NCBI RefSeq assembly: GCF_013205025.1
Contig: NZ_JABMLE010000003.1
Location: 310,001-374,000, forward strand
Direction: 5' to 3'
Length of the DNA: 64,000 bases
DNA from: Rathayibacter sp. VKM Ac-2857
GTDB lineage: Bacteria > Actinomycetota > Actinomycetes > Actinomycetales > Microbacteriaceae
A program made the position numbers and the translations under genes. The notes under the pieces were generated by a model, which made no database searches, was not told the DNA's origin, and saw only the letters and a program-made list of their open reading frames with translations. Each line of letters starts with the position of its first letter. The first letter of the stretch is position 1. This document shows positions 2,353-64,000 of the stretch, piece by piece.

Positions 2353-4416
2353 GTGGACGAGGGGAACCTCCGCGCCGACTGGACGCGCGAGCACTGGCTC
2401 GCCGTCGCGGACGCGCTCCTCGCCGCCGTGGCTCCCTACGCCAGCGCCGGCCACGGCCGGATCACGCTTCCCGGCGCCGAGGGCGGCTACGGCCGCGCGG
2501 TCGACGGCCTCGAGGGCTTCGCCCGCACCTTCCTGCTCGCCGGCTTCCGCATCGCCGGAGCGCGCGGCGAGGGCGTCGACGAGCTGATCGACTTCTACCG
2601 CCGCGGCGTCGAGACCGGCGTCGACCCCGACGCGGAGGACCGCTGGGTGCGGATCGACGAGCACGCCCAGGCCAAGGTCGAGGCGGCGTCGATCGCGCTG
2701 GTGCTCGACCTCACGCGGCCCTGGATCTGGGACCGCCTCGACGCCCGCACTCAGCAGCGCGTCGTCGACTACCTCGCCCCCGTCGTCGGCGACGACACGT
2801 ACCCGCAGACCAACTGGGTCTGGTTCCGCCTGGTCGTCGAGACCTTCCTCCGCTCGGTCGGCGGCCCGTGGTCGATGCAGGACATGACCGCCGATCTCGC
2901 CCGGCACGACTCCTTCGTCCGCGAGGACGGCTGGCTCGCCGACGGCGCCGAGCGCGCCTTCGACCACTACGTCGGCTGGGCCCTGCACGTGTACCCGGTG
3001 CTCTGGGCGCGGATGTCCGGCGCGGCCGAGCTGGCCGCCCCACGCGCGGCCGCCGACGTCGCCCGGCTCGACCGCTACCTCTCCGACGCCCTCGCGCTCG
3101 TCGGCGGCGACGGCTCGCCGCTGCTGCAGGGCCGCAGCCTGATCTACCGCTTCGCCGCCGCCGCGCCGTTCTGGGCCGGCGTGATCGCCGAGGTGCCCTC
3201 GCACTCCCCGGGTCGGCTGCGCCGCGCTGCGAGCGCGATCGTCGGGCACTTCGCCGAGAACGGCGCGCCCGGCGAGGACGGCCTGCTCTCGATGGGCTGG
3301 CACGACCCGTGGCGCGAGCTCGCGCAGTCCTACTCCGGCCCCGGCTCGCCGTACTGGGCGGTCAAGGGCATGCTCGGCATCCTGCTCCCGGCCGAGCACC
3401 CGGTCTGGTCCGCGCCGACGGAGCCGCTCCCGGCCGCCCTGCTCCCGATCGAGCAGGGCGACGACCTCCGCGCGATCGTCTCGCCCGGCTGGATCGTCTC
3501 CGGCACGCACGCCGACGGCATCGTCCGCGTCGTCAACCACGGCACCGACAAGGCCCTGCCCGGCGCGACGACCGGCGACTCCCCGCTCTACGCCCGCCTG
3601 GGCTACTCCACTGCCACCGCGCCGCTGCTCGACGAGCGCGGCTGGGCGGAGGCGCTCGAGCAGAGCGTCGCGCTGATCGACGCCGCGGACGACGCGACCC
3701 ACCGCACCGGCATGACGCTGACCGAGGTCCGCCTCGACGCGGACGGCCGGGTCGGTGTGGCCGGCTCGAGCTGGGACGCGCACTGGATCTCTCCGGAGCG
3801 CAGCAGCCACCGCCACGGCGAGGGCCTGCGCGGCGCCGTCCGCGTCGCCGGCCGGATCAGCGTGCACTCGCTGGTCCGCGGCCCGTGGGAGCTGCGCCTC
3901 GTGCGGGTCGATGAGCTCGCTGAGGGAGTGCGCCCGGAGCAGCTGCGGCTGCGCATCGGGGGCTGGGCGACGGCCGGCGAGCGGATCGACGCGACCGCGG
4001 ACGGCACGACGGCCCGAGCAACCGCGGGGGTCCTCACCAGCACCCTGACCCTCCTCACCCCCAGCGCCCTCACCCCCCGCGCCCTCCCCGAGGTCGTCGC
4101 CCGCGACGGCGCGAGCCCGCTCGGCCCCGCGGTCGGCGTGCCGACGCTCACCCTCCCGGCGGAGGTCGACGCCCTCGTCGTCGCGCTGGTCGGCCTCACC
4201 GCCGAAGAGACGGCCGGAGCGGAGCCCCTCTCCGCGGGCCCCGCGTCGGTCGACGTCGCCACTGACGGCGACGCCCTGTCCGTGACGGCGACCTGGCCCG
4301 ACGGCCTCGTCACCGAGCACCGACTCCCAGATTCCGGACGCGCCGCTCGGCAGCTCCGGTACCCGAGGACCCGAGGTGGAGTCCCGGACGCAGATGCAAA
4401 GGAGCAGCACGCATGA
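2353..4416 (+). CDS. DUF2264 domain-containing protein
   Basis: 687 residues from GTG 2353, chosen because AAAGGAG lies 8 nt upstream. It matches the DUF2264 family: an alpha/alpha-barrel N-terminal half (GFARTFLLAGFRIAG near residue 60; QTNWVWFRLVVETFLRSVGG near 155; MGWHDPW near 315) and a beta-rich C-terminal half. DUF2264 proteins recur in bacterial polysaccharide-utilisation loci, and the fold resembles glycan-processing lyases and hydrolases, but the reaction is not established. No signal peptide is seen. The stop overlaps the next ATG by 4 nt, so it is co-translated with the ABC transporter for the same substrate. Confidence 0.8.
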   Translation: MDEGNLRADWTREHWLAVADALLAAVAPYASAGHGRITLPGAEGGYGRAVDGLEGFARTFLLAGFRIAGARGEGVDELIDFYRRGVETGVDPDAEDRWVRIDEHAQAKVEAASIALVLDLTRPWIWDRLDARTQQRVVDYLAPVVGDDTYPQTNWVWFRLVVETFLRSVGGPWSMQDMTADLARHDSFVREDGWLADGAERAFDHYVGWALHVYPVLWARMSGAAELAAPRAAADVARLDRYLSDALALVGGDGSPLLQGRSLIYRFAAAAPFWAGVIAEVPSHSPGRLRRAASAIVGHFAENGAPGEDGLLSMGWHDPWRELAQSYSGPGSPYWAVKGMLGILLPAEHPVWSAPTEPLPAALLPIEQGDDLRAIVSPGWIVSGTHADGIVRVVNHGTDKALPGATTGDSPLYARLGYSTATAPLLDERGWAEALEQSVALIDAADDATHRTGMTLTEVRLDADGRVGVAGSSWDAHWISPERSSHRHGEGLRGAVRVAGRISVHSLVRGPWELRLVRVDELAEGVRPEQLRLRIGGWATAGERIDATADGTTARATAGVLTSTLTLLTPSALTPRALPEVVARDGASPLGPAVGVPTLTLPAEVDALVVALVGLTAEETAGAEPLSAGPASVDVATDGDALSVTATWPDGLVTEHRLPDSGRAARQLRYPRTRGGVPDADAKEQHA

Positions 4417-5714
4417 AGAGAAGACTGACCGCAGCCGGAGTGGCCCTGGTCGCCGCCCTGTCCCTCACCGCCTGCTCGGGCGGCGGTGGCGCTGACGCCC
4501 CCGCGGCCGACGGCCCGATCACGCTCAGCCTCTCCGGCTGGAGCCTGAGCACGACGCCGGAGTTCCAGGCGCTCGCCGACGCGTTCCACGAGAAGGACCC
4601 CGACGTCACGATCGAGGTCAAGGAGTACGACGCGACCAACTACGACACCCTGATGACCGCGGACCTCGCGGCCGGCAGCGGTCCGGACATCGTCACGCAG
4701 AAGAACGTCAAGAACGTCGTCACCTACCAGGCCGGCGGCCAGCTCCTCGACGTCTCGGACATCGAGCTGCCCGACGACCTCGGCGGCGTGGAGGCCTACC
4801 AGGTCGACGACAAGCAGTGGGCCGCGCCCTACCGCCAGGACTCCTGGGTCCTCTTCTACAACAAGGCCCTCTTCGACCAGGCCGGCGTCGCCTACCCCGA
4901 CGGCACCTGGACCTGGGACGACTACGAGGCCACCGCCGAGGAGCTGACCACGGCGCTCGCCGCGGCCGGCAGCAGCGCCGCCGGTACCTACGAGCACAGC
5001 TGGCAGTCGACGGTGCAGGGCTTCGCGAGCGCGCAGACCCCGGACATCGACATCCTCGACGCCGACTACGGCTACCTCGAGCCCTACTACGAGCGCGTTC
5101 TCGCGCTCCAGGACGCGGGTGCGCAGGCGGAGTACAACACGATCGTCGCGAACAAGCTCACCTACCAGGCCGAGTTCGGCAAGCAGAACGCCGCGATGAT
5201 GCCGATGGGCACCTGGTTCGTCGCGTCGCTGATCGCCCAGCAGGCGTCCGGCGACTCCGACACCTTCGACTGGGGCTTCGCGCCGATCCCGCAGTTCGAC
5301 GAGTCGACCACCGGCCTGGACCAGACCCCCGTGACCTTCGGCGACCCGACCGGCTTCGGCATCAACGCCGGCATCGACTCGGGCAAGCAGGCCGCGGCCA
5401 AGGAGTTCCTCGAGTTCGCGTCGAGCGAGGAGGGCGCGGAGGTCGTCGCCTCCCTCGGCATCACGCCCGCGCTGACCAGCGACGCGGTCGCCGAGACCTA
5501 CTTCGCGGTCGACAGCGCGCCGACCGACGAGGTCTCGAAGTTCGCCTGGTCCACGCACGACACCAAGCCGGAGAACCCGACCTCGGCCAAGACGGCCGCC
5601 GTCCAGAACGTGCTCCTCGACCTGCACACCGCCGTCATGTCGGGCTCGACGAGCCTCGATGACGCCGTGAAGACCGCCGAGGACCGCGTGAAGAACGAAG
5701 TCGGCACGAACTGA
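4413..5714 (+). CDS. Sugar ABC transporter substrate-binding lipoprotein
   Basis: 433 residues with a lipoprotein signal: KRR, hydrophobic core, lipobox LTAC with the lipidated Cys at 21, then a Gly/Ala linker. The rest is a family 1 (CUT1) solute-binding protein: ITLSLSGWSLSTTPEFQALA at the start of the mature fold, and WVLFYNKALFDQAGV near residue 145. It captures oligosaccharides outside the membrane for the two permeases downstream. AAAGGAG lies 8 nt before the ATG. No ATPase gene is present, as is usual for actinobacterial CUT1 systems that share an MsiK-type ATPase. Confidence 0.9.
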   Translation: MKRRLTAAGVALVAALSLTACSGGGGADAPAADGPITLSLSGWSLSTTPEFQALADAFHEKDPDVTIEVKEYDATNYDTLMTADLAAGSGPDIVTQKNVKNVVTYQAGGQLLDVSDIELPDDLGGVEAYQVDDKQWAAPYRQDSWVLFYNKALFDQAGVAYPDGTWTWDDYEATAEELTTALAAAGSSAAGTYEHSWQSTVQGFASAQTPDIDILDADYGYLEPYYERVLALQDAGAQAEYNTIVANKLTYQAEFGKQNAAMMPMGTWFVASLIAQQASGDSDTFDWGFAPIPQFDESTTGLDQTPVTFGDPTGFGINAGIDSGKQAAAKEFLEFASSEEGAEVVASLGITPALTSDAVAETYFAVDSAPTDEVSKFAWSTHDTKPENPTSAKTAAVQNVLLDLHTAVMSGSTSLDDAVKTAEDRVKNEVGTN

Positions 5715-54655: not shown

Positions 54656-56557
54656 TCACGCCTCGCTGAGCGCCTCCTCCTCCGCCGCCACGTCCTTCTG
54701 CACCGCGAACTGCGTGCGGTGCAGCTCCTCGTAGCGGCCGGCCGCGGCGAGCAGCTCCTCGTGCGTGCCGCGCTCGACGATCATGCCGTCCTCGATCACG
54801 AGGATCAGGTCGGCGCTGCGGATGGTGGAGAGGCGGTGGGCGATCACCATCGCGGTCCGGCCCTCGAGCGCCTCGCTGAGCGCCGCCTGCACCGCGGCCT
54901 CCGAGGTGGAGTCGAGCGCCGCGGTCGCCTCGTCGAGGATGACGACGCGCGGCTGGGCGAGCAGGAGTCGCGCGATGGTCAGCCGCTGGCGCTCGCCGCC
55001 GGAGAGGCGGTAGCCGCGCTCGCCGACGAGGGTGTCCAGCTGGTCGGGCAGGGAGCGGATGAGCGGCTCGAGCCGCGCGCGGCGGAGGGCGTCCCACACC
55101 TCGTCGTCGGTCGACTCCGGCCGGGCGAGGCGCAGGTTGGACAGGATCGTCTCGTGGAAGAGGTGGCCGTCCTGCGTCACCATGCCCAGGGTGTGCCGCA
55201 TCGAGGCGAAGGTGACGTCGCGGACGTCGGTGCCGGCCAGGCGCACCGCGCCGCTGTCGACGTCGTAGAGGCGCGAGAGCAGCTGCGCGATCGTCGACTT
55301 GCCGGCCCCCGACGTGCCGACGAGCGCGACGGTCTGCCCCGGCTCGATCCGGAAGGAGAGGCCGTGCAGCACCTCCTCGCCGCCGCGGGTGTCGAGGACG
55401 GCGACCTCCTCGAGGGAGGCGAGGGACACCTTGTCCGCGGACGGGTAGGCGAAGCGGACGTCGTCGAACTCGACGGACACCGGGCCCTCGGGGACCGTGC
55501 CCGCGTCGGGCTTCTCCTGGATGAGCGGCTGGAGGTCGAGCACCTCGAAGACGCGCTCGAAGCTGACGACCGCGCTCATGATCTCAACGCGCGCGTTCGC
55601 GAGGCTGGTCAGCGGCGCGTAGAGGCGGGTGAGGAGGAGGGCCAGGGTGACGACCGCGCCGGTGTCGAGCTGCCCGCCGAGCGCGAGGACGCCGCCGAGC
55701 CCGTAGACGAGCGCGAGGGCGAGCGCGGAGACGAGGGTCAGCGCGGTGACGAAGACCAGCTGCAGCATCGCCGTCCGGACCCCGATGTCGCGGACGCGGG
55801 CCGCGCGGACGCGGAACTCCTCGGCCTCCTCGTCGGGCCGGCCGAACAGCTTGACCAGGGTGGCACCGGGCGCCGAGAAGCGCTCGGTCATCTGCGTGCT
55901 CATCGCGGAGTTGTGGTCGGCGGCCTCGCGGCGGAGCGCGGCGAGGCGGCTGCCCATCCGGCGCGCGGGGATGAGGAAGATCGGCAGCATGATCACCGCG
56001 AGGACGGTGACCAGCCAGGACGTGCTGAGCATGACGATCAGGGTGAGGACCAGCGCCACGACGTTCGTGACCACGCCGGAGAGCGTGCCGCTGAAGGCCT
56101 GCTGCGCGCCAATAACGTCGTTGTTGAGCCGGCTGACGAGCGCGCCCGTGCGGGTGCGGGTGAAGAACGCGATCGGCATCTTCTGCACATGGTTGAAGAC
56201 GGCGGTGCGCAGGTCGAGGATGACGCCCTCGCCGATCCGCGCCGAGTACCAGCGCGTGACGAGCGAGACGCCGGCGTCGGCCACGGCCACGAGGGCGATG
56301 ACCACGGCGAGCTGGACGATCGTGCCGACCGCCCCACGGGCGACGATGGTGTCGACCACCCGTCCGGCGAGCACCGGCGTCGCGACTGCGAGGAACGCGC
56401 CGACGACGGACAGGCCGATGAAGAGGAGGAGGCGGGCGCGGTAGGGGACCGCGAAGGTCATGATGCGGCGCACGGACTCGCGCGAGATGCCGTGCTTGCC
56501 GCCCTGGGCGGAGGAGATCCGGTAGAGGGAGCTCCAGGCGACGCCTTCCATGCTCAT
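54656..56557 (-). CDS. ABC exporter, fused transmembrane and ATP-binding domains
   Basis: 633 residues. Six-helix type IV exporter domain (about 35-325), then an ATPase: Walker A GTSGAGKST at 414-422, signature LSGGERQRLTIARLLLAQP, Walker B VVILDEATAALD, and AHRLSTIRSADLI. A homodimeric half-transporter of the MsbA/multidrug group; substrate unknown. Fragments of a close paralogue lie 1.5-2 kb away (57.95-58.24 kb). Confidence 0.92.
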   Translation of the reverse strand: MSMEGVAWSSLYRISSAQGGKHGISRESVRRIMTFAVPYRARLLLFIGLSVVGAFLAVATPVLAGRVVDTIVARGAVGTIVQLAVVIALVAVADAGVSLVTRWYSARIGEGVILDLRTAVFNHVQKMPIAFFTRTRTGALVSRLNNDVIGAQQAFSGTLSGVVTNVVALVLTLIVMLSTSWLVTVLAVIMLPIFLIPARRMGSRLAALRREAADHNSAMSTQMTERFSAPGATLVKLFGRPDEEAEEFRVRAARVRDIGVRTAMLQLVFVTALTLVSALALALVYGLGGVLALGGQLDTGAVVTLALLLTRLYAPLTSLANARVEIMSAVVSFERVFEVLDLQPLIQEKPDAGTVPEGPVSVEFDDVRFAYPSADKVSLASLEEVAVLDTRGGEEVLHGLSFRIEPGQTVALVGTSGAGKSTIAQLLSRLYDVDSGAVRLAGTDVRDVTFASMRHTLGMVTQDGHLFHETILSNLRLARPESTDDEVWDALRRARLEPLIRSLPDQLDTLVGERGYRLSGGERQRLTIARLLLAQPRVVILDEATAALDSTSEAAVQAALSEALEGRTAMVIAHRLSTIRSADLILVIEDGMIVERGTHEELLAAAGRYEELHRTQFAVQKDVAAEEEALSEA

Positions 56558-57073: not shown

Positions 57074-57877
57074 TCACCGCGTCGCTGTTGCCTGCCATGT
57101 CTCGACGTCAGGGTTGTCCGACGCGATCAGCCAGGTGATCTCGAACGCGGAGTCGCTCGCCTCACCCGTGTCGTAGTTGAAGCCTCCGGCGTAGGAGGCG
57201 AGCCATCCGGTCTTGTCAATCTCCGGGATCGTCTTCTGCGCGTAGTCCAGGCCGCGCTCCGCGATGAAGGTCTCGTACGTCGAAGGCGACTCCGCGAGTG
57301 CGATGTCCCTGTCGCTGACGACCTCGACGAAGAGCGAGCTGGATCCGTCGGCACGCGCGACGTCGTCGACGATCTCTTTGATCTGATCGCGGCCGGCTGT
57401 GGTGGACGCTTCGACTCCTTCCGTGAATACCCAGTACTGGGTGAGACCGGCACTGCTCTGACCGCGGTCCGTCGACACGATCTCGTAGGGCACGCCGCTG
57501 TAGGTGGAGACGTCGGCGGGCGCCTCGGACGGTACTGCCGCTGGCGCCTGCGTCGGAACTGAAGTCGGGGTCTGTGCGGGCGCGGCCGACGTAGGCGACG
57601 TGGAAGGAGCTGCAAGCTCCTCGTCGTCCCCCGTGATCAGGCTCATGACGGTGATGACGGCCGCGAGGATCACGAGGACGCCTCCGACTCCTCCGATGAG
57701 GAGCCACGGCGGCTTCGGCTTCACGCGTCGGAAGCTGAGGCTCGTCCGCAGCATCGTCTGCTCCTGCTGGGAGAGGAGCTCCCAGCCCGCCTTCTCCCAC
57801 TTGGTGATCGAACGGCCTTCAAGACCTCGGATGGTGGTGACCGTCTTGGTCTCGTAACGAATCTCACCGTCGGGCAT
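57074..57877 (-). CDS. Membrane-anchored protein of unknown function
   Basis: 267 residues. The cytoplasmic N-terminus (about 1-55, YETKTVTTIRGLEGRSITKW then EKAGWELLSQ) resembles DUF4177-type small domains. One transmembrane helix near 58-82 (PWLLIGGVGGVLVILAAVIT), then a Ser/Pro/Thr-rich linker (about 85-125) and an extracytoplasmic alpha/beta domain (SSLFVEVVSDRDIALAESPS). No catalytic motif. A sensor or cell-envelope role is possible but not evident. Confidence 0.75.
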   Translation of the reverse strand: MPDGEIRYETKTVTTIRGLEGRSITKWEKAGWELLSQQEQTMLRTSLSFRRVKPKPPWLLIGGVGGVLVILAAVITVMSLITGDDEELAAPSTSPTSAAPAQTPTSVPTQAPAAVPSEAPADVSTYSGVPYEIVSTDRGQSSAGLTQYWVFTEGVEASTTAGRDQIKEIVDDVARADGSSSLFVEVVSDRDIALAESPSTYETFIAERGLDYAQKTIPEIDKTGWLASYAGGFNYDTGEASDSAFEITWLIASDNPDVETWQATATR

Positions 57878-57949: not shown

Positions 57950-58243
57950 TTGAGCGCGACAGGGGGTCTCGACCCGGACGATGATGGTGCCGACTGTTTG
58001 TCCGGCGAGTATCTGCGTCGCGATAAAGGGCAACGCGCCTAGGACGGAGAGCCCGCTGAGGCGCAGCCACCACGGAAGGGCAGAGGCCGAGGCCGCGGTC
58101 GTGATCCGCCACACGACTCGAGCCAGCTACCGTGCGTGCCGCTGAAGGCCTGTTAAGCGCCGATCATCTCGTTGTTGAGCTGGCTGACGAGGGCGCGCGT
58201 GTGGGTGCGGGTGAAGATCGCGACCGGCATCTTCTGCACGCGG
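57950..58243 (-). pseudogene. Scrambled fragments of a second ABC exporter gene
   Basis: 58135-58243 aligns with 56086-56193 of the intact exporter at roughly 85-90% identity by eye, covering the region of MPIAFFTRTRTG and LNNDVIG, with an in-frame stop (gttaag on the plus strand). 57970-58065 aligns more loosely (about 70%) with 56338-56412, the first membrane helix (GLSVLGALPFIATQILAGQT against GLSVVGAFLAVATPVLAGRV). The two pieces are in reversed order relative to the intact gene, so this is a rearranged relic rather than a simple truncation. Confidence 0.7.
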
Positions 58244-58379: not shown

Positions 58380-59388
58380 TGACCGAGCCGGCTCTTCCCG
58401 ATGACTACGCCGGATTGCTCATCGGCTTTGAGGAGCAGGTGCGCACGGCCCGGTTTCGGGTGCAGCGTCGGCCAACACGGAGCTGATCCACCTCAATCGG
58501 TGGATCGGGTGGGTCCTCGTGGAGCAGACGGAACGCGCGGCGTGGGGCGACAAGGACATCCAGCGCCTCTCGGCTGACCTCCGCGCCGAGTTCGTCGGCG
58601 TCACCGGGTTCTTGCTGCGCAATCTGAAGTAGACGCGCTCTTCGCGCGAGCCTGGCCGTCGTTAGAGGAGATCGGGCAACACGCTGTTGCCCAATTGCCG
58701 TGGGGCCACATCACCGTGCTGCTCGACAATCTCACCGACCGAGAGGATCGAGAGTGGTCCGCCGAACACGCGGTCACCAACGGCTGGACGAGAAGCACTC
58801 TCGAGCACCACATCAAGACGCACGCGCACCAGCGCTTCGGCGCAGCCTCCACGAACTTCGATCACATTCTCGAGCCGACAACCTCAGATATCGTCCAACA
58901 GATAACGAAGGACCCATGCATCTTCGACTTCCTCACCGTCGAGCCCGGCCACGTGTGACGAGATCAAGCAGGCCCTCGTCGATCGAATCATCGAAACTCT
59001 GGGAGAACTCGGACGCGGCGTCAGCTTCGTCGGCCGGCAAGTGGAGTTCGACGTCGACGCCGACGAATTCTCCGTCGACCTCCTCTTCTTCCACATCGAG
59101 CAATTGCGCTACGTCGTCGTGGAGCTGAAGGTGGGGAAGTTCAGGCCGGAGTACGTCGGCCAGCTCGGGTTCTACGTCGGAGTCGTGGAGAACCATCTCC
59201 GCCGTGCGGCGCATGCGCCCACCGTCGGCCTGCTGCTCTGCACCGACAAAATCGATCGCGTCGTGCGGTACGCGCTGGCGAGTAGCACGCATCCCCCATC
59301 GCAATCGCCAGCTACAACCTCCGCCTTCGAGGACCAGGCCGCACTGCCATCCGAAGCCGACCTGGACCGCGCCGTCAGCAAGCGCTGA
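58380..59388 (+). pseudogene. DUF1016 (YhcG-type) PD-(D/E)XK nuclease, multiple frameshifts
   Basis: Pieces of one protein lie in successive frames: PDDYAGLLIGFEEQVRTARF; ELIHLNRWIGWVLVEQTERA with RLSADLRAEF and GFLLRNLK; LFARAWPSLEEIGQHAVAQL with WGHITVLLDNLTD and ITKDPCIFDFL; then IIETLGELGRGVSFVGRQVE, VDLLFFHIEQLRYVVVELKV and LPSEADLDRAV. At least three shifts and a stop separate them, with a further compensating shift near 59295 (IAIASYNL in another frame). The nuclease core D...E-x-K motif (VELKV) is present, but the gene is dead. DUF1016 genes are often in defence or mobile regions. Confidence 0.85.
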
Positions 59389-60207: not shown

Positions 60208-60474
60208 CTAACCCCCGGTGAGCGCGGGAGCAGGTTTCACGATGACGTCGCCGTCGTACAGCGCGAGACAGTCGAGATCTGCAAGAAGGTCCAGGTCGGC
60301 TTCAAAAAGGTCCCAGCCACGCGTTCTGTAGCTGTCCGTCAGGTCGTTTACAGCTCGGTATAGGCGCACAAATGAAACGCGGTCTGCCTGACAGCGGTCA
60401 AGAGCTGAAATCAGCGCGTTCAGTCGTTCCTGTCGTATCTTGATGAGCTGTTCGAGAGGTGCGAGCTTCTCCAT
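60208..60474 (-). CDS. Small helical protein of unknown function, last gene of the nucleotide cassette
   Basis: 88 residues from ATG 60474. GGAG lies 6 nt upstream, within the end of the HD gene, and the gap to that gene's stop is only 3 nt, so it is co-translated. Predicted helices: LEQLIKIRQERLNALISALD and VSFVRLYRAVNDLTDSY. The tail is acidic and Leu-rich (DLLADLDCLALYDGDVIVKP). No family recognised; a partner or inhibitor of the HD protein is plausible from the tight linkage. Confidence 0.7.
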   Translation of the reverse strand: MEKLAPLEQLIKIRQERLNALISALDRCQADRVSFVRLYRAVNDLTDSYRTRGWDLFEADLDLLADLDCLALYDGDVIVKPAPALTGG

Positions 60475-60477
60475 AAA

Positions 60478-62202
60478 TCACTCCTTGGTTTGCTTCTGTG
60501 AAGCTGACTTTGTGGGGCCGATGAACTCGGATAGGAATATGCGCGCGACCTCAGACCCGCTATGCGCGCGGTCTCCGCGGTCGTAGCTTGTTCGCTCAAA
60601 TGGCACGAAGCACGCCCAAAGTTTCAGGCGCATGTCGTCGGCCTGTTCGAGTCCCTTCGCAATGGGCGATAGCCGCTCGAAGCTGATGGGCACGGAGTCG
60701 TGCCATAGTTGAATTTTCGCGGTCCGCATCGAGAAACGAAGGCGCTGAGTAACGATCCATGTTCCTCTGACTGAGGCTACTTGCCCGTGCCGCCCATTCA
60801 GAAGCGACTCGACGGTGTGCTCCAGATTCTCGTCACCCTCGAGTCGTAGCTTCGCTACCGCGTTCAGAGCGGCCGCGAAGTTCTCCTCATTGGCTCGCCA
60901 AGTGCGGGCTGCGCCACTGCGGTCGGCGACCGTTTCCTCAGCGCGCTTCGCTTGTTCGACGAGATTCTCGCACCAATCAAGCTTCATCGCCCGGAGCCCG
61001 GCAAGTAACTCTTCGTAGCTGCGCCACGCGAACAGCACCCCACGGTCCCCGTCAAAGGCGAGACGATGAAGGGCACGCAGCCGCTCGACCTTGGTGTCAC
61101 TGCTTGGCGTCCGCTGGAGCACGGAGTTCAGGTAGCTGATGATCATCGCGTCATCGACCCAGGCTGAACCGTCGTAAGCGTGCTCATCTCCCCACTTCGA
61201 TAGAAAGTCGAACTGTGAGAGGTCGTCTTCCTCGCGGGTGAACGCTTCGTGGACGAGACGTCGCAGCGCAGTGTCCGAGGCGAGTGCATTCGCGTGGAAG
61301 TAAACCCACCGGTAGGCGCGCTCGCGGTTGGTGAGGAGGGTTTCAATGGCCGAGATAGCACGCGAACCGTAGCCGATGAACCATTCGGGCTTCGGGTCGC
61401 TGCGCGCCTCGATTGTTATCGACTCGAGGATCCGCTCGACATCGATTGCTCCGAACTCTGTTCCTGCGCGGGAGGAATCGCGTAACAGGTAGTCCAGTCG
61501 ATCCGTATCAATTGGAGCAGAGATAATGTGGTGGATAGCGCGAGCCCACTGAGGGGTGGTCGCACGGTCGCCTGTCAGAATCTGCATCGTGATCCAGGTG
61601 CAAAATTCATCCTTCAAAGAGGCGAGCGCACGCTCCGCAAGGAGCTGCCCACACACTTCGTGGAACTGAAGCCTTGGTGACTCTTCTTCGATGCGCGCGA
61701 GTTCCACTAGCGTTTCCTCTTGAAAGATGCGCTCACGGAACCGCGAAAACTCCGGTTCGAGGGTGTGTGAGTACGGTCCATGACCGACGTCGTGAAGTAG
61801 CGCCGCGGCCCCCAGTGCTATCCGCATGATCTTGCCGAAGGCGTCGACCCACACTCGCTCGCGATCTTCGAGGCGGTCGCGCTTTTGGAGATGCGAGAAG
61901 TATGGATCTCTGCCATCTGCCACCAAGTCTTTATAAACGTCCCCTGCTAACGCGGATTGTGTTGTAAATCCGGCGTTGTGCCAGGCGCTATCCCAGGCTT
62001 TCATACCGAGATGCATAACGCCGAGAGCGTGCTCGAACCGGTTTCCAGTTAGCGAGGGGTAGACCACGTGACCGCAGCCGTTTTGGTGAATGCGTCGCAG
62101 TCGTGCGATGAATGGCGAGTCCACGAGCTCGACAAGCTCCTGCGGCACGTAGACATAGCCGTGCACAGGATCGCGATATCGACGTCCGTATCGAACGCTC
62201 AT
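60478..62202 (-). CDS. HD-domain phosphohydrolase (dNTPase-like)
   Basis: 574 residues from ATG 62202, overlapping the upstream stop by 4 nt. Metal-binding H...HD...D set: His58 in GNRFEHALGVMHLG, His137-Asp138 in LLHDVGHGPYSH, and the later Asp in IDTDRLDYLLRDS. These are arranged as in SAMHD1/dGTPase-type enzymes (opening RYRDPVHGYVYVP). The 300-residue C-terminal half is helical and unassigned. Probable dNTP triphosphohydrolase or nucleotide phosphohydrolase. Confidence 0.85.
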   Translation of the reverse strand: MSVRYGRRYRDPVHGYVYVPQELVELVDSPFIARLRRIHQNGCGHVVYPSLTGNRFEHALGVMHLGMKAWDSAWHNAGFTTQSALAGDVYKDLVADGRDPYFSHLQKRDRLEDRERVWVDAFGKIMRIALGAAALLHDVGHGPYSHTLEPEFSRFRERIFQEETLVELARIEEESPRLQFHEVCGQLLAERALASLKDEFCTWITMQILTGDRATTPQWARAIHHIISAPIDTDRLDYLLRDSSRAGTEFGAIDVERILESITIEARSDPKPEWFIGYGSRAISAIETLLTNRERAYRWVYFHANALASDTALRRLVHEAFTREEDDLSQFDFLSKWGDEHAYDGSAWVDDAMIISYLNSVLQRTPSSDTKVERLRALHRLAFDGDRGVLFAWRSYEELLAGLRAMKLDWCENLVEQAKRAEETVADRSGAARTWRANEENFAAALNAVAKLRLEGDENLEHTVESLLNGRHGQVASVRGTWIVTQRLRFSMRTAKIQLWHDSVPISFERLSPIAKGLEQADDMRLKLWACFVPFERTSYDRGDRAHSGSEVARIFLSEFIGPTKSASQKQTKE

Positions 62203-63671
62203 CTCTTGGGCTCCGATATCTCAAAATTGTCGACCAAGTCTTGCAGGAGTTCAGCGTCGGCTTTGTGTGGCGCATACACTCGCACTAGCGGCTGACCGCG
62301 TTCCACAAGTGTGCCGAGCGCGGCCCCAAGCATGATACCCCCGGCTCCAGGTGCGAGGGGGAGTCCACCAGATCCTGGTGTGTAGACGTTCAGCCGATTG
62401 TTCACCATGTCAGCGAGCTCGACTGTGTCCTTCGATGTCAGGGTTCCGGTAGAAGACGCAGTAATGTCCGTGAACGGCAACCCTTGAAGGATCGCTTCGG
62501 CCCCCGTGTCCCTTACTCTTGCGAGAAAGGGCGCTTCGACACCATGATCTTGCCATAGGGACAGTAGGTTTTCTTTCAGAGTCCCATCACGCCATGCGTC
62601 CACGACCGTGGAATGGATGTCTTTCTCGGTCAGCGAAGGGCATTGAGCGAGATGTGAAGCGAAAGACGCCGAGAGCGCGAGTTCACTTCCTTCGGGAATT
62701 GATAGGTCGGCGGGAGCGTCGAGGAGGTCGAGGACTTCACTGATCTCGGTAGCATTACCAATGCTCCGCCAAGTTACCCGCGATGTTGAGCGGACTCTGA
62801 AATCAATAAACAGTGGTAGCCCGGCACACACTTTGGATGCGAGTGCGACGAATGCATCCGCTTCACCCCGTGTGTAGAAGAACGCGCCAGGGCCGTATAG
62901 GACGTCGAGGAGCGTCAGATCGGTTTGCAGGGCGTACTGCTTGGCGATGATGCTAGCGACGATGAGTCCGACCTGCCGGACGGTACCGGTCTCACCTCGG
63001 AGGAAATACAGCACCTCGTCGCGAGGGCAGAAGTCGGGTCCGGCAGTGAAGTACCTCACCGCCGGGGGCTCGCCGCTCCAGCCGCTCACCGCCGCCGCGG
63101 ACATCGGGCGGAAGCCGGGAAGAATGCGAAGCTTGTCGCTCGTCCCCCCTGTGTGCCCTAATCTGCGGGCGACAAGAAAGCTTGAGTTCAGGCCGGCCCG
63201 CTCGCTCAACAACCGGAGGACCGCCGGAAGGAGGATTGCCTGCTTTTCTGAAATGCCCCCCGTTGGGTAGCGTCGGACACTCTTCGTCTTCTGCGGCCGC
63301 TTGCGAAAGAGAGGTTCGGCAAGAAACCGAGTTAGCAGCGCAACCTGCTGGGTGGAGACGCCACGCAGTCTCATCGACGTTAGCCAGTACCCTAGGGCGA
63401 CCCCCGCATCCCGCTCAGCGGATGTCGCCCACGCCTCGATGGCCGAGGCGAGTAGTTTCCAGAGGTCCGCAGACTCTGTGAACCAAGCGTCCGCAAGCAC
63501 GTCTGGACGCGACCCGCTCATGCTGCGCCAGTCTGACGCGTTCGTGGCGCGGCCAAATGCCGCATGGCAAAGAAGTGCACCGAACTGCGCCGGCGTTGGG
63601 ACGTCGCTGAACAGAATGGGATCGCCCTGGCGTTGAAAGGCGACCTCGAGCCTAAGCGCGTTAGATCGCAT
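62199..63671 (-). CDS. Divergent thymidine-phosphorylase-family protein
   Basis: 490 residues from ATG 63671, overlapping the kinase-like gene by 11 nt. Family blocks: TGGISEKQ at 137, LGHTGGTSDKLRILPGF at 171-187, LRGETGTVRQVGLIVASIIA, LYGPGAFFYTRGEADAF at 258. Residues matching E. coli TP Arg171, Ser186 and Lys190 are kept (Arg225, Ser240, Lys244). The K-H-S triad (84-86) is R-Y-P (134-136) and the DVK-x-G-x-GAF lysine is Leu. So the nucleoside/phosphate site is altered; activity may be changed or lost. ATGA-coupled to the HD gene. Confidence 0.75.
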   Translation of the reverse strand: MRSNALRLEVAFQRQGDPILFSDVPTPAQFGALLCHAAFGRATNASDWRSMSGSRPDVLADAWFTESADLWKLLASAIEAWATSAERDAGVALGYWLTSMRLRGVSTQQVALLTRFLAEPLFRKRPQKTKSVRRYPTGGISEKQAILLPAVLRLLSERAGLNSSFLVARRLGHTGGTSDKLRILPGFRPMSAAAVSGWSGEPPAVRYFTAGPDFCPRDEVLYFLRGETGTVRQVGLIVASIIAKQYALQTDLTLLDVLYGPGAFFYTRGEADAFVALASKVCAGLPLFIDFRVRSTSRVTWRSIGNATEISEVLDLLDAPADLSIPEGSELALSASFASHLAQCPSLTEKDIHSTVVDAWRDGTLKENLLSLWQDHGVEAPFLARVRDTGAEAILQGLPFTDITASSTGTLTSKDTVELADMVNNRLNVYTPGSGGLPLAPGAGGIMLGAALGTLVERGQPLVRVYAPHKADAELLQDLVDNFEISEPKR

Positions 63672-64000
63672 AGCGTTGAATACTCTCAAGGAGGAGCCGC
63701 ACGTCCTCCGCAGTCTCCTCAGGCGATCCGACCTGCTGTCGGTGGACGATGAACTCCACGCCCTTCTCGGCTGTGTAAGCGCGTGCTACGTCAGACATCA
63801 GTTCCTGCATCGCGAGATTCTCGCCAATGTCCACCCCTGCATCGAACTCTCGACCTCGCTTAGTCAGCATGGTATTCCAGGTGGGCTCGTCAACCTGTAC
63901 GAACACTAGATGGGTGGGGTCAGGCAACGACGCGTAGTCCACTTCCGCGGCGCTTTGAGCTGCGTCGAAGTAGGGGTTTTCGGGTGAGATCAGCCAGCGC
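63661..64000 (-). CDS. Deoxynucleoside kinase-like protein, C-terminal part (truncated by window edge)
   Basis: The minus-strand frame stays open to the window edge; about 112 residues are visible. PENPYF, then DPTHLVFVQVDEPTWNTMLT, KRGREFDAGVDIGENLAMQE and a C-terminal helix fit the post-P-loop half of deoxynucleoside or nucleotide kinases: a P-x-LV strand, a K/R-RGR-x-F/Y-D/E lid, a Y...L helix. The Walker A region lies outside the window. Its stop lies inside the TP-like gene's start, so the three genes form one translational unit. Confidence 0.6.
   Translation of the reverse strand, partial: RWLISPENPYFDAAQSAAEVDYASLPDPTHLVFVQVDEPTWNTMLTKRGREFDAGVDIGENLAMQELMSDVARAYTAEKGVEFIVHRQQVGSPEETAEDVRLLLESIQRYAI

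Follow-up and report, generated by a model that had tools for sequence, protein, structure and literature searches.

A five-gene cassette in a variable defence site of Rathayibacter as a candidate anti-phage module acting on the deoxynucleotide pool

What function can be assigned to a compact run of minus-strand genes, most of whose products belong to families acting on nucleosides or nucleotides, at the end of a 64,000-nucleotide stretch of DNA (the window) from Rathayibacter sp. VKM Ac-2857? An earlier note, made from the letters of the window, had described a four-gene operon of foreign composition and had proposed either a phage-defence module or a specialised salvage pathway. The genome measures 4.6 Mb, and the window is part of its contig C3; DNA fetched past position 64,000 brings the cassette to five genes. 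With a probability of about 0.55, this cassette is a horizontally acquired anti-phage module acting on the deoxynucleotide pool. The elements of this reading, taken from the DNA and its translations, are the gene spacing, the cargo of the chromosomal hotspot in which the genes lie, a retained catalytic set in an HD phosphohydrolase, a thymidine phosphorylase (TP) homologue that has kept its pyrimidine pocket and lost most of its phosphate site, and the catalytic residues and C-terminal tail of an EEP/ExoIII-like phosphodiesterase.

The anatomy of the locus agrees with the earlier description for the four genes seen in the window, which are present, open and spaced as had been claimed. On the minus strand, and from the last gene of the cassette backwards, they encode a small protein of 88 residues (60208-60474), an HD phosphohydrolase of 574 residues of the SAMHD1/EF1143 kind (60478-62202), a homologue of thymidine/pyrimidine-nucleoside phosphorylases, hereafter the TP-like protein (62199-63671), and a P-loop nucleotide-kinase-like protein (63661-64296 in window numbering), which the window cuts at 64000. 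The extension that the note had called for completed the kinase to 211 amino acids and revealed, wholly beyond the window end and upstream of the kinase start, a fifth minus-strand gene encoding an EEP protein of 292 amino acids (64301-65179 in window numbering, or 4301-5179 of the fetched region L002), so that the operon stands and the count of four genes does not. The kinase and TP-like genes overlap by 11 nucleotides and the TP-like and HD genes by 4, while gaps of 3 and 4 nucleotides separate the HD gene from the small gene and the EEP gene from the kinase gene. All five frames are open and co-directional. The TP-like protein starts at the ATG at 63671, with an alternative TTG possible at 63689, and the true EEP start lies perhaps about 30 codons downstream of the longest open reading frame (ORF) start, where most relatives begin. 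Judged from this anatomy, five intact co-directional genes at spacings of -11 to +4 nucleotides exceed by far what chance ORFs would give. The foreign composition suggested earlier is also borne out: G+C content at 60-64 kb is 0.58-0.60 against about 0.70-0.75 across most of the window, and third-codon-position G+C content is 0.62-0.68 in the five genes against 0.82 in the neighbouring ORF at 57074-57877.

The HD protein is a member of the SAMHD1/EF1143-like group and a putative deoxynucleoside triphosphate (dNTP) triphosphohydrolase. It matches PF01966 in Pfam (E 4.6e-5, above the family cut-off), and in the PDB it is closest to 2o6i (E 2.5e-26), with other HD proteins and SAMHD1 ranking next. 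In an alignment with 37 relatives, the catalytic positions H58, H137, D138, H181, E182 and D234 are all kept; the first three are present in every relative, H181 in 35, and E182 and D234 in 36 each. This H...HD...HE...D set is taken by us to represent the catalytic positions of SAMHD1. Y301 (32/37 relatives) and H303 (35/37), which presumably lie near the sugar site, are likewise conserved. Local matches to the relatives stop at about residue 350, or at 425 at most, the C-terminal part of the protein lying beyond. The family match, the structural relative and the retained catalytic set uphold the dNTPase-like identity given in the earlier note.

The TP-like protein gives the locus its most unusual feature. 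Its homology to thymidine phosphorylase, as previously proposed, is confirmed by the TIGR02644 profile (E 1e-32; 113.5 bits, below the curated cut-off of 409.05) and by PDB matches to TP and pyrimidine-nucleoside phosphorylase (PyNP) structures (best E 1.5e-21); the PYNP_C domain is matched at 19.5 bits, below its cut-off of 27. In an alignment with 28 relatives the pyrimidine pocket is intact at four positions out of four, Y228, R231, S246 and K250 being identical in all 28; these we equate with Y168, R171, S186 and K190 of E. coli TP. The phosphate and catalytic site, presumably equivalent to K84, H85, S86, S95, S113 and T123 of the E. coli enzyme, is altered at five of its six positions. 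K (26 of the 28 relatives) is replaced by R140, H (26) by Y141, S (27) by P142, S/T (28) by A151 and S (27) by V173, and T183 (28) is kept. A second alignment puts the A151 position at L153 instead, which is also not S/T, and the 28-relative alignment carries a four-residue insertion between A151 and V173. The predicted model of the protein was too poor for use (mean pLDDT, predicted local distance difference test score, 50.6). Because five of the six phosphate and catalytic positions are lost, the TP-like protein is probably no phosphorylase, and ordinary salvage becomes unlikely; most directly, it would bind a pyrimidine, as nucleoside or as base, and not carry out canonical phosphorolysis. 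It thus shares the fold family and the pyrimidine pocket with canonical DeoA and PyNP, but differs from them in the replaced phosphate and catalytic positions and in its first ~94 residues, which lie outside the best PDB match.

The kinase carries a clear P-loop (GVPGCGKS) and is best described as a divergent P-loop protein, nucleotide-kinase-like by its sequence. Searches of Pfam at E up to 0.1 gave weak P-loop matches and nothing else; VakA of PADLOC is weakly matched (6.2e-4, 18.4 bits), as is a thymidylate kinase in PHROG at 0.017, and NCBIfam gave no match. No credible solved relative was found in the PDB, where the one row returned (E 0.78) is an antibody fragment. The deoxynucleoside kinase (dNK) proposed earlier is not upheld, this gene being absent from the results of a genome-wide PF01712 search run at E up to 10. 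For the small protein, Pfam, PADLOC and NCBIfam gave no match at E up to 1, and PHROG a single one at E 0.06; its single-sequence AlphaFold model is unusable (mean pLDDT 60.2).

The EEP protein matches PF03372 (Exo_endo_phos) at 5e-9 with 36.7 bits against a cut-off of 24.5, and the ExoIII (xth) model at 3e-10, under the cut-off of that model. Its catalytic residues N39, E67, D179, N181, D233, D263 and H264 are invariant across six aligned rows. Relatives were gathered from a plasmid search (8 records) and from one scan of genome contigs with an EEP alignment, in which a single pattern matched 116 stretches, 79 of them confirmed, at 77 loci; together with five plasmid loci, 82 EEP loci were examined. 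Two genomic contexts emerge among them. In the first, the radical SAM protein of locus L037 finds matches at 22 of the 82 loci, L037 included (in pieces in L048, L060, L065 and L082), its thymidylate (dTMP) kinase at 24 (weakly in L111 and in part in L093) and its MazG-like protein at 7; in several others, a further cluster, present in 13 loci, follows the EEP gene, and the one member tested is a NUDIX protein. Typically, a radical SAM gene comes first, followed by the dTMP kinase and EEP genes and finally by a MazG-like or NUDIX gene. In the second context, the EEP gene is accompanied by an aldo/keto reductase and a radical SAM protein of large size, whose clusters are present in 34 loci each, the members taken from L040 being a B12-binding radical SAM protein and an Aldo_ket_red protein. 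The first arrangement (L037, L038, L043, L046, L049-L056, L060, L062, L063, L066, L067, L095 and others) is a conserved actinobacterial operon for which no name was found.

The window EEP ends in ...VEPPTLF, and this ending recurs in the first of these contexts. An LF ending is found in 20 of the 23 EEP rows from the radical-SAM/kinase context (TLF or ALF in 19, VLF in one), the rows without it being L057, L093 and the second EEP of L048. Among the other 62 rows the pattern is counted six times, with TLF in L044, L045, L047, L058 and L117; the sixth, L059, ends in ELFE and does not truly match. The ending is absent from all 44 rows of the B12-binding radical SAM/aldo-keto reductase context, and also from the seven further EEP matches of the same genome, read in the frame starting at the listed match. 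We take the TLF/ALF tail, as read from these alignments, to be a real common feature; it is perhaps a docking motif, and its binding to a sliding clamp or another replication protein would be a guess. The common tail also suggests that the cassette and the radical-SAM operons share a layout. They have in common an EEP of the same family with a TLF/ALF tail (carried by most of the operon EEPs), a nucleotide kinase and a nucleotide hydrolase, whereas the cassette lacks a radical SAM protein, has an HD protein in place of NUDIX or MazG, adds the TP-like protein and differs in gene order. Elsewhere in the same genome, another ExoIII-like protein (L121, C3:76446-77210) ends in DDDRPMIF, a tail reminiscent of the acidic SSB tip with its Ile-Pro-Phe.

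The chromosomal setting was described earlier as a neighbourhood of decayed defence genes, and the evidence turns out to be stronger than was claimed. The cassette lies in a site of about 13 kb that is variable among sister genomes. From seven sister regions fetched, both flanks were recovered in three (G791, G787 and G789), the right flank not being found within the 20 kb fetched in G784, G788, G786 and G781. The left flank, consisting of an ABC transporter gene and the gene after it, can be matched as far as window position 58243 in G791 and G787 and as far as 56571 in G789; in all three, the match returns on the right at 71213-71227, and the cargo between the flanks is unrelated. Thirteen of the larger ORFs of these three sites were tested. 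G791 carries a GTPase-associated system (metallophosphatase-GAAD, GASH, DO-GTPase2, DO-GTPase1 and GAP1), G787 an MmeI-type IIG restriction-methyltransferase with a DEAD helicase, and G789 the candidate defence proteins PDC-M09A and PDC-M09B together with a PRA-PH/MazG protein, a kinase-PurA/PurZ fusion and a DUF7002 protein. In its own genome the site holds, besides the cassette, PD-Lambda-5 A and B, an Abi_2 protein and a YhcG fragment. There is good evidence that this site takes up defence cargo, and since it holds defence-type cargo in three sister genomes, defence is the likely setting of the cassette.

Several details of this region deserve mention in their own right. The decayed DUF1016/YhcG nuclease remnant pointed out previously adjoins the cassette as a plus-strand ORF of 115 amino acids (59041-59388) that matches PF06250 (YhcG_C, a PDDEXK nuclease domain) at 4.5e-24 over profile positions 52-134 of 157. 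PD-Lambda-5 A is split over two adjoining ORFs (L002:7418-8943, window numbering 67418-68943) that cover successive portions of the model; the gene thus looks interrupted. A fragment at window 58134-58243 resembles the 5' region of the ABC transporter gene (54656-56557) at about 90%, and longer copies of that region occur near the hotspot in G789 and G791. The fusion protein of G789 joins a P-loop kinase to an adenylosuccinate synthetase (PurZ at 197 bits, below the cut-off of 300), and with the adjoining PRA-PH/MazG and DUF7002 genes (L182:7304-10520) it makes up another candidate set for defence by nucleotide modification within this hotspot.

How could such a module work? The joint action of the five products, their part in phage defence and each of the following steps are proposed from the sequence features given above. 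The HD protein would be the effector and would strip triphosphate off at least one kind of dNTP. The TP-like protein would bind a pyrimidine nucleoside or base without canonical use of phosphate, and might either sense a thymidine or uridine compound that rises during infection or transfer a base in another reaction. The kinase would phosphorylate the nucleoside or nucleotide concerned, and the EEP protein may trim or repair DNA 3' ends, or destroy a nucleic acid product, so that the host is protected.

A number of results weigh against this interpretation, most of them concerning distribution. No second copy of the cassette was found in the samples searched. The HD protein is present in one of 15 genomes of the genus (its own), in two of 393 genomes of the family, the other being a lone HD protein without partners in G867, and in 7/396 genomes of the phylum, where the six others show 25-28% identity over the HD region. 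The kinase is restricted to its own genome in both the phylum sample (1/392) and the class sample (1/389). None of the 82 EEP loci matches the cassette HD, TP-like, kinase or small proteins in tblastn searches at E up to 1e-3, and a second cassette gene accompanies none of the 64 HD or TP loci inspected (29 viral HD, 8 viral TP and 27 others), so the co-occurrence on which the earlier proposal depended was not seen in the material sampled. PADLOC, whose library dates from 2023, has no match for the HD, TP-like, small or EEP proteins. Scans for tRNAs in the window and in L002, and for repeats of 20 bases or more in L002:1-12000, found none, and hence no border of a mobile unit was seen from tRNAs or repeats, no search having been aimed at integrases. 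Finally, in a quick tree the window EEP forms a long branch apart from the 84 further rows of the family and is not nested in the radical-SAM group, which counts against a close tie to these operons, as the common tail counts for one.

Other searches complete this picture of distribution. The TP-like protein has relatives in 36 of 396 genomes of the order sample, its own included, with a best match outside its own genome at E 1.6e-22 and 32% identity, as expected for ordinary phosphorylases. In viral contigs, single-protein scans confirmed no relatives of the HD, kinase or TP-like proteins, and scans with alignments gave at least 29 HD loci and 8 TP loci; two Klebsiella phage HD proteins lack cassette partners. 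The kinase had no match in plasmids or phages, the EEP none in phages and the small protein none in plasmids, and for the HD and TP-like proteins the plasmids held partial, low-identity matches and nothing better. The genome samples overlap and take in a minor fraction of the known species, so that the cassette can be called rare but not proved to be unique. The lone protein of G867 (L129:5733-8417, 894 amino acids) combines a SAMHD1-like HD domain with a long C-terminal part that by eye is phosphoribosyltransferase-like. Taken as a whole, the earlier interpretation survives for the HD protein, the TP homologue, the operon, the foreign composition and the defence setting; the dNK is not confirmed, the gene count is raised to five, and co-occurrence was not found in the samples.

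A more specific form of the defence reading invokes nucleotide-analogue chemistry: the TP-like protein would make an unusual pyrimidine nucleoside, the kinase would convert it to a nucleotide, the HD protein would remove the competing natural dNTP and the EEP protein would excise the analogue from host 3' ends. The EEP tail and the family link to the radical-SAM, dTMP-kinase, EEP and NUDIX or MazG operons speak for this scheme, as does the resemblance of their layout (a modifying enzyme, a kinase, an EEP and a nucleotide hydrolase) to that of the cassette, and in one of these operons the radical SAM protein matches, over its core, the PADLOC models of prokaryotic viperins (pVips) at 1.1e-15, a weak match. 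Yet none of the five cassette proteins is a radical SAM protein, the kinases of the two operons align over 40 columns at the P-loop and no more, and the window EEP stands apart on its long branch. Moreover, the radical SAM protein of L043 fits SPASM-type maturase models better (mycofactocin maturase at 3.3e-26, below the cut-off), so viperin-like chemistry is not supported. On balance this scheme appears unlikely, although it is the one among the alternatives to which most weight can be given. A bolder extension, to be held as speculation, would see here a new type of defence in which a phosphate-less TP paralogue makes or senses a pyrimidine nucleoside signal or analogue, a dedicated kinase activates it, the SAMHD1-like enzyme clears the competing dNTP and the ExoIII-like protein with its TLF/ALF docking tail protects host DNA, with the actinobacterial radical-SAM operons as sister systems that share its kinase-EEP-hydrolase chassis.

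That unrelated genes were gathered in a hotspot without joint function, or persist there as a decaying remnant, is quite improbable: the lack of a second copy and the partial decay of the neighbours (the YhcG fragment and PD-Lambda-5 A in two ORFs) would fit, but the five frames are open, overlap or abut and are alike in composition, and the catalytic residues of the HD and EEP proteins are conserved. Least probable of all is specialised pyrimidine deoxynucleoside salvage or nucleic-acid scavenging, in which EEP would yield mononucleotides, HD nucleosides, the TP-like protein free base and the kinase the salvaged product; for although this order of reactions is plausible and each fold family is generally known to have salvage or repair members, the loss of K, H, S, S/T and S from the TP-like site makes phosphorolysis unlikely, Pfam recognised no transporter or regulator among the five genes, and the genes sit in a variable defence hotspot, the site losses and the hotspot together ruling out an ordinary salvage operon as the leading explanation.

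An anti-phage module acting on the deoxynucleotide pool would belong to a growing branch of bacterial immunity, one shared in principle with SAMHD1 and viperin of animals. If the interpretation is true, a module with a repurposed nucleoside phosphorylase and possibly a host-protecting nuclease would show how infection is sensed or self-harm avoided; the phosphate-less TP homologue is a clear biochemical target.

Comparison with known systems places the cassette in this general class. Stand-alone dGTPase and dCTP deaminase defences, reportedly described by Tal et al. in 2022, have the attack on the nucleotide pool in common with the cassette, which differs in being a multi-gene operon and in having an HD protein without a PADLOC match. 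Membership among the pVips was rejected, since Pfam finds no radical SAM match in the five proteins. Kongming, as described in a review, uses a dITP signal and borrows a phage kinase (PMC12948488); both it and the cassette would unite kinases and a modified nucleotide in defence, but here the kinase-like gene lies inside the cassette, and genes resembling KomA, KomB or KomC were not recognised, no Kom model having been searched by name. The DefensePredictor study counts domains of MazG, nucleotide kinase, dUTPase and purine phosphorylase among the predicted, not validated, defence parts, and a thymidylate synthase and a 5-hydroxymethyluracil kinase among the validated ones (PMC13092281). By title and abstract, the gene set is not described in the open-licence literature joining phosphorylase or HD proteins with defence, among the matches listed. 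Nucleotide-pool defence as a class is known, then, and this set, with its TP homologue devoid of a phosphate site and its TLF-tailed EEP, was not seen described; the earlier impression that it corresponds to no named system holds against Clover, pVip and these literature listings. The dNTPases are established defence effectors, as exemplified by Clover, which consists of the dNTPase CloA and the nucleotidyltransferase CloB and in which an HD dGTPase is coupled to dTTP sensing and a thymidine-based inhibitor (PMC12265719). Membership in Clover was rejected, since Pfam recognises no CloB-type (Pol-beta-type) nucleotidyltransferase among the five proteins, which include a kinase, a TP-like protein and an EEP protein instead. 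Both systems nevertheless have an HD protein of the dNTPase type as the probable effector, a defence setting and a partner with a possible link to compounds of thymidine.

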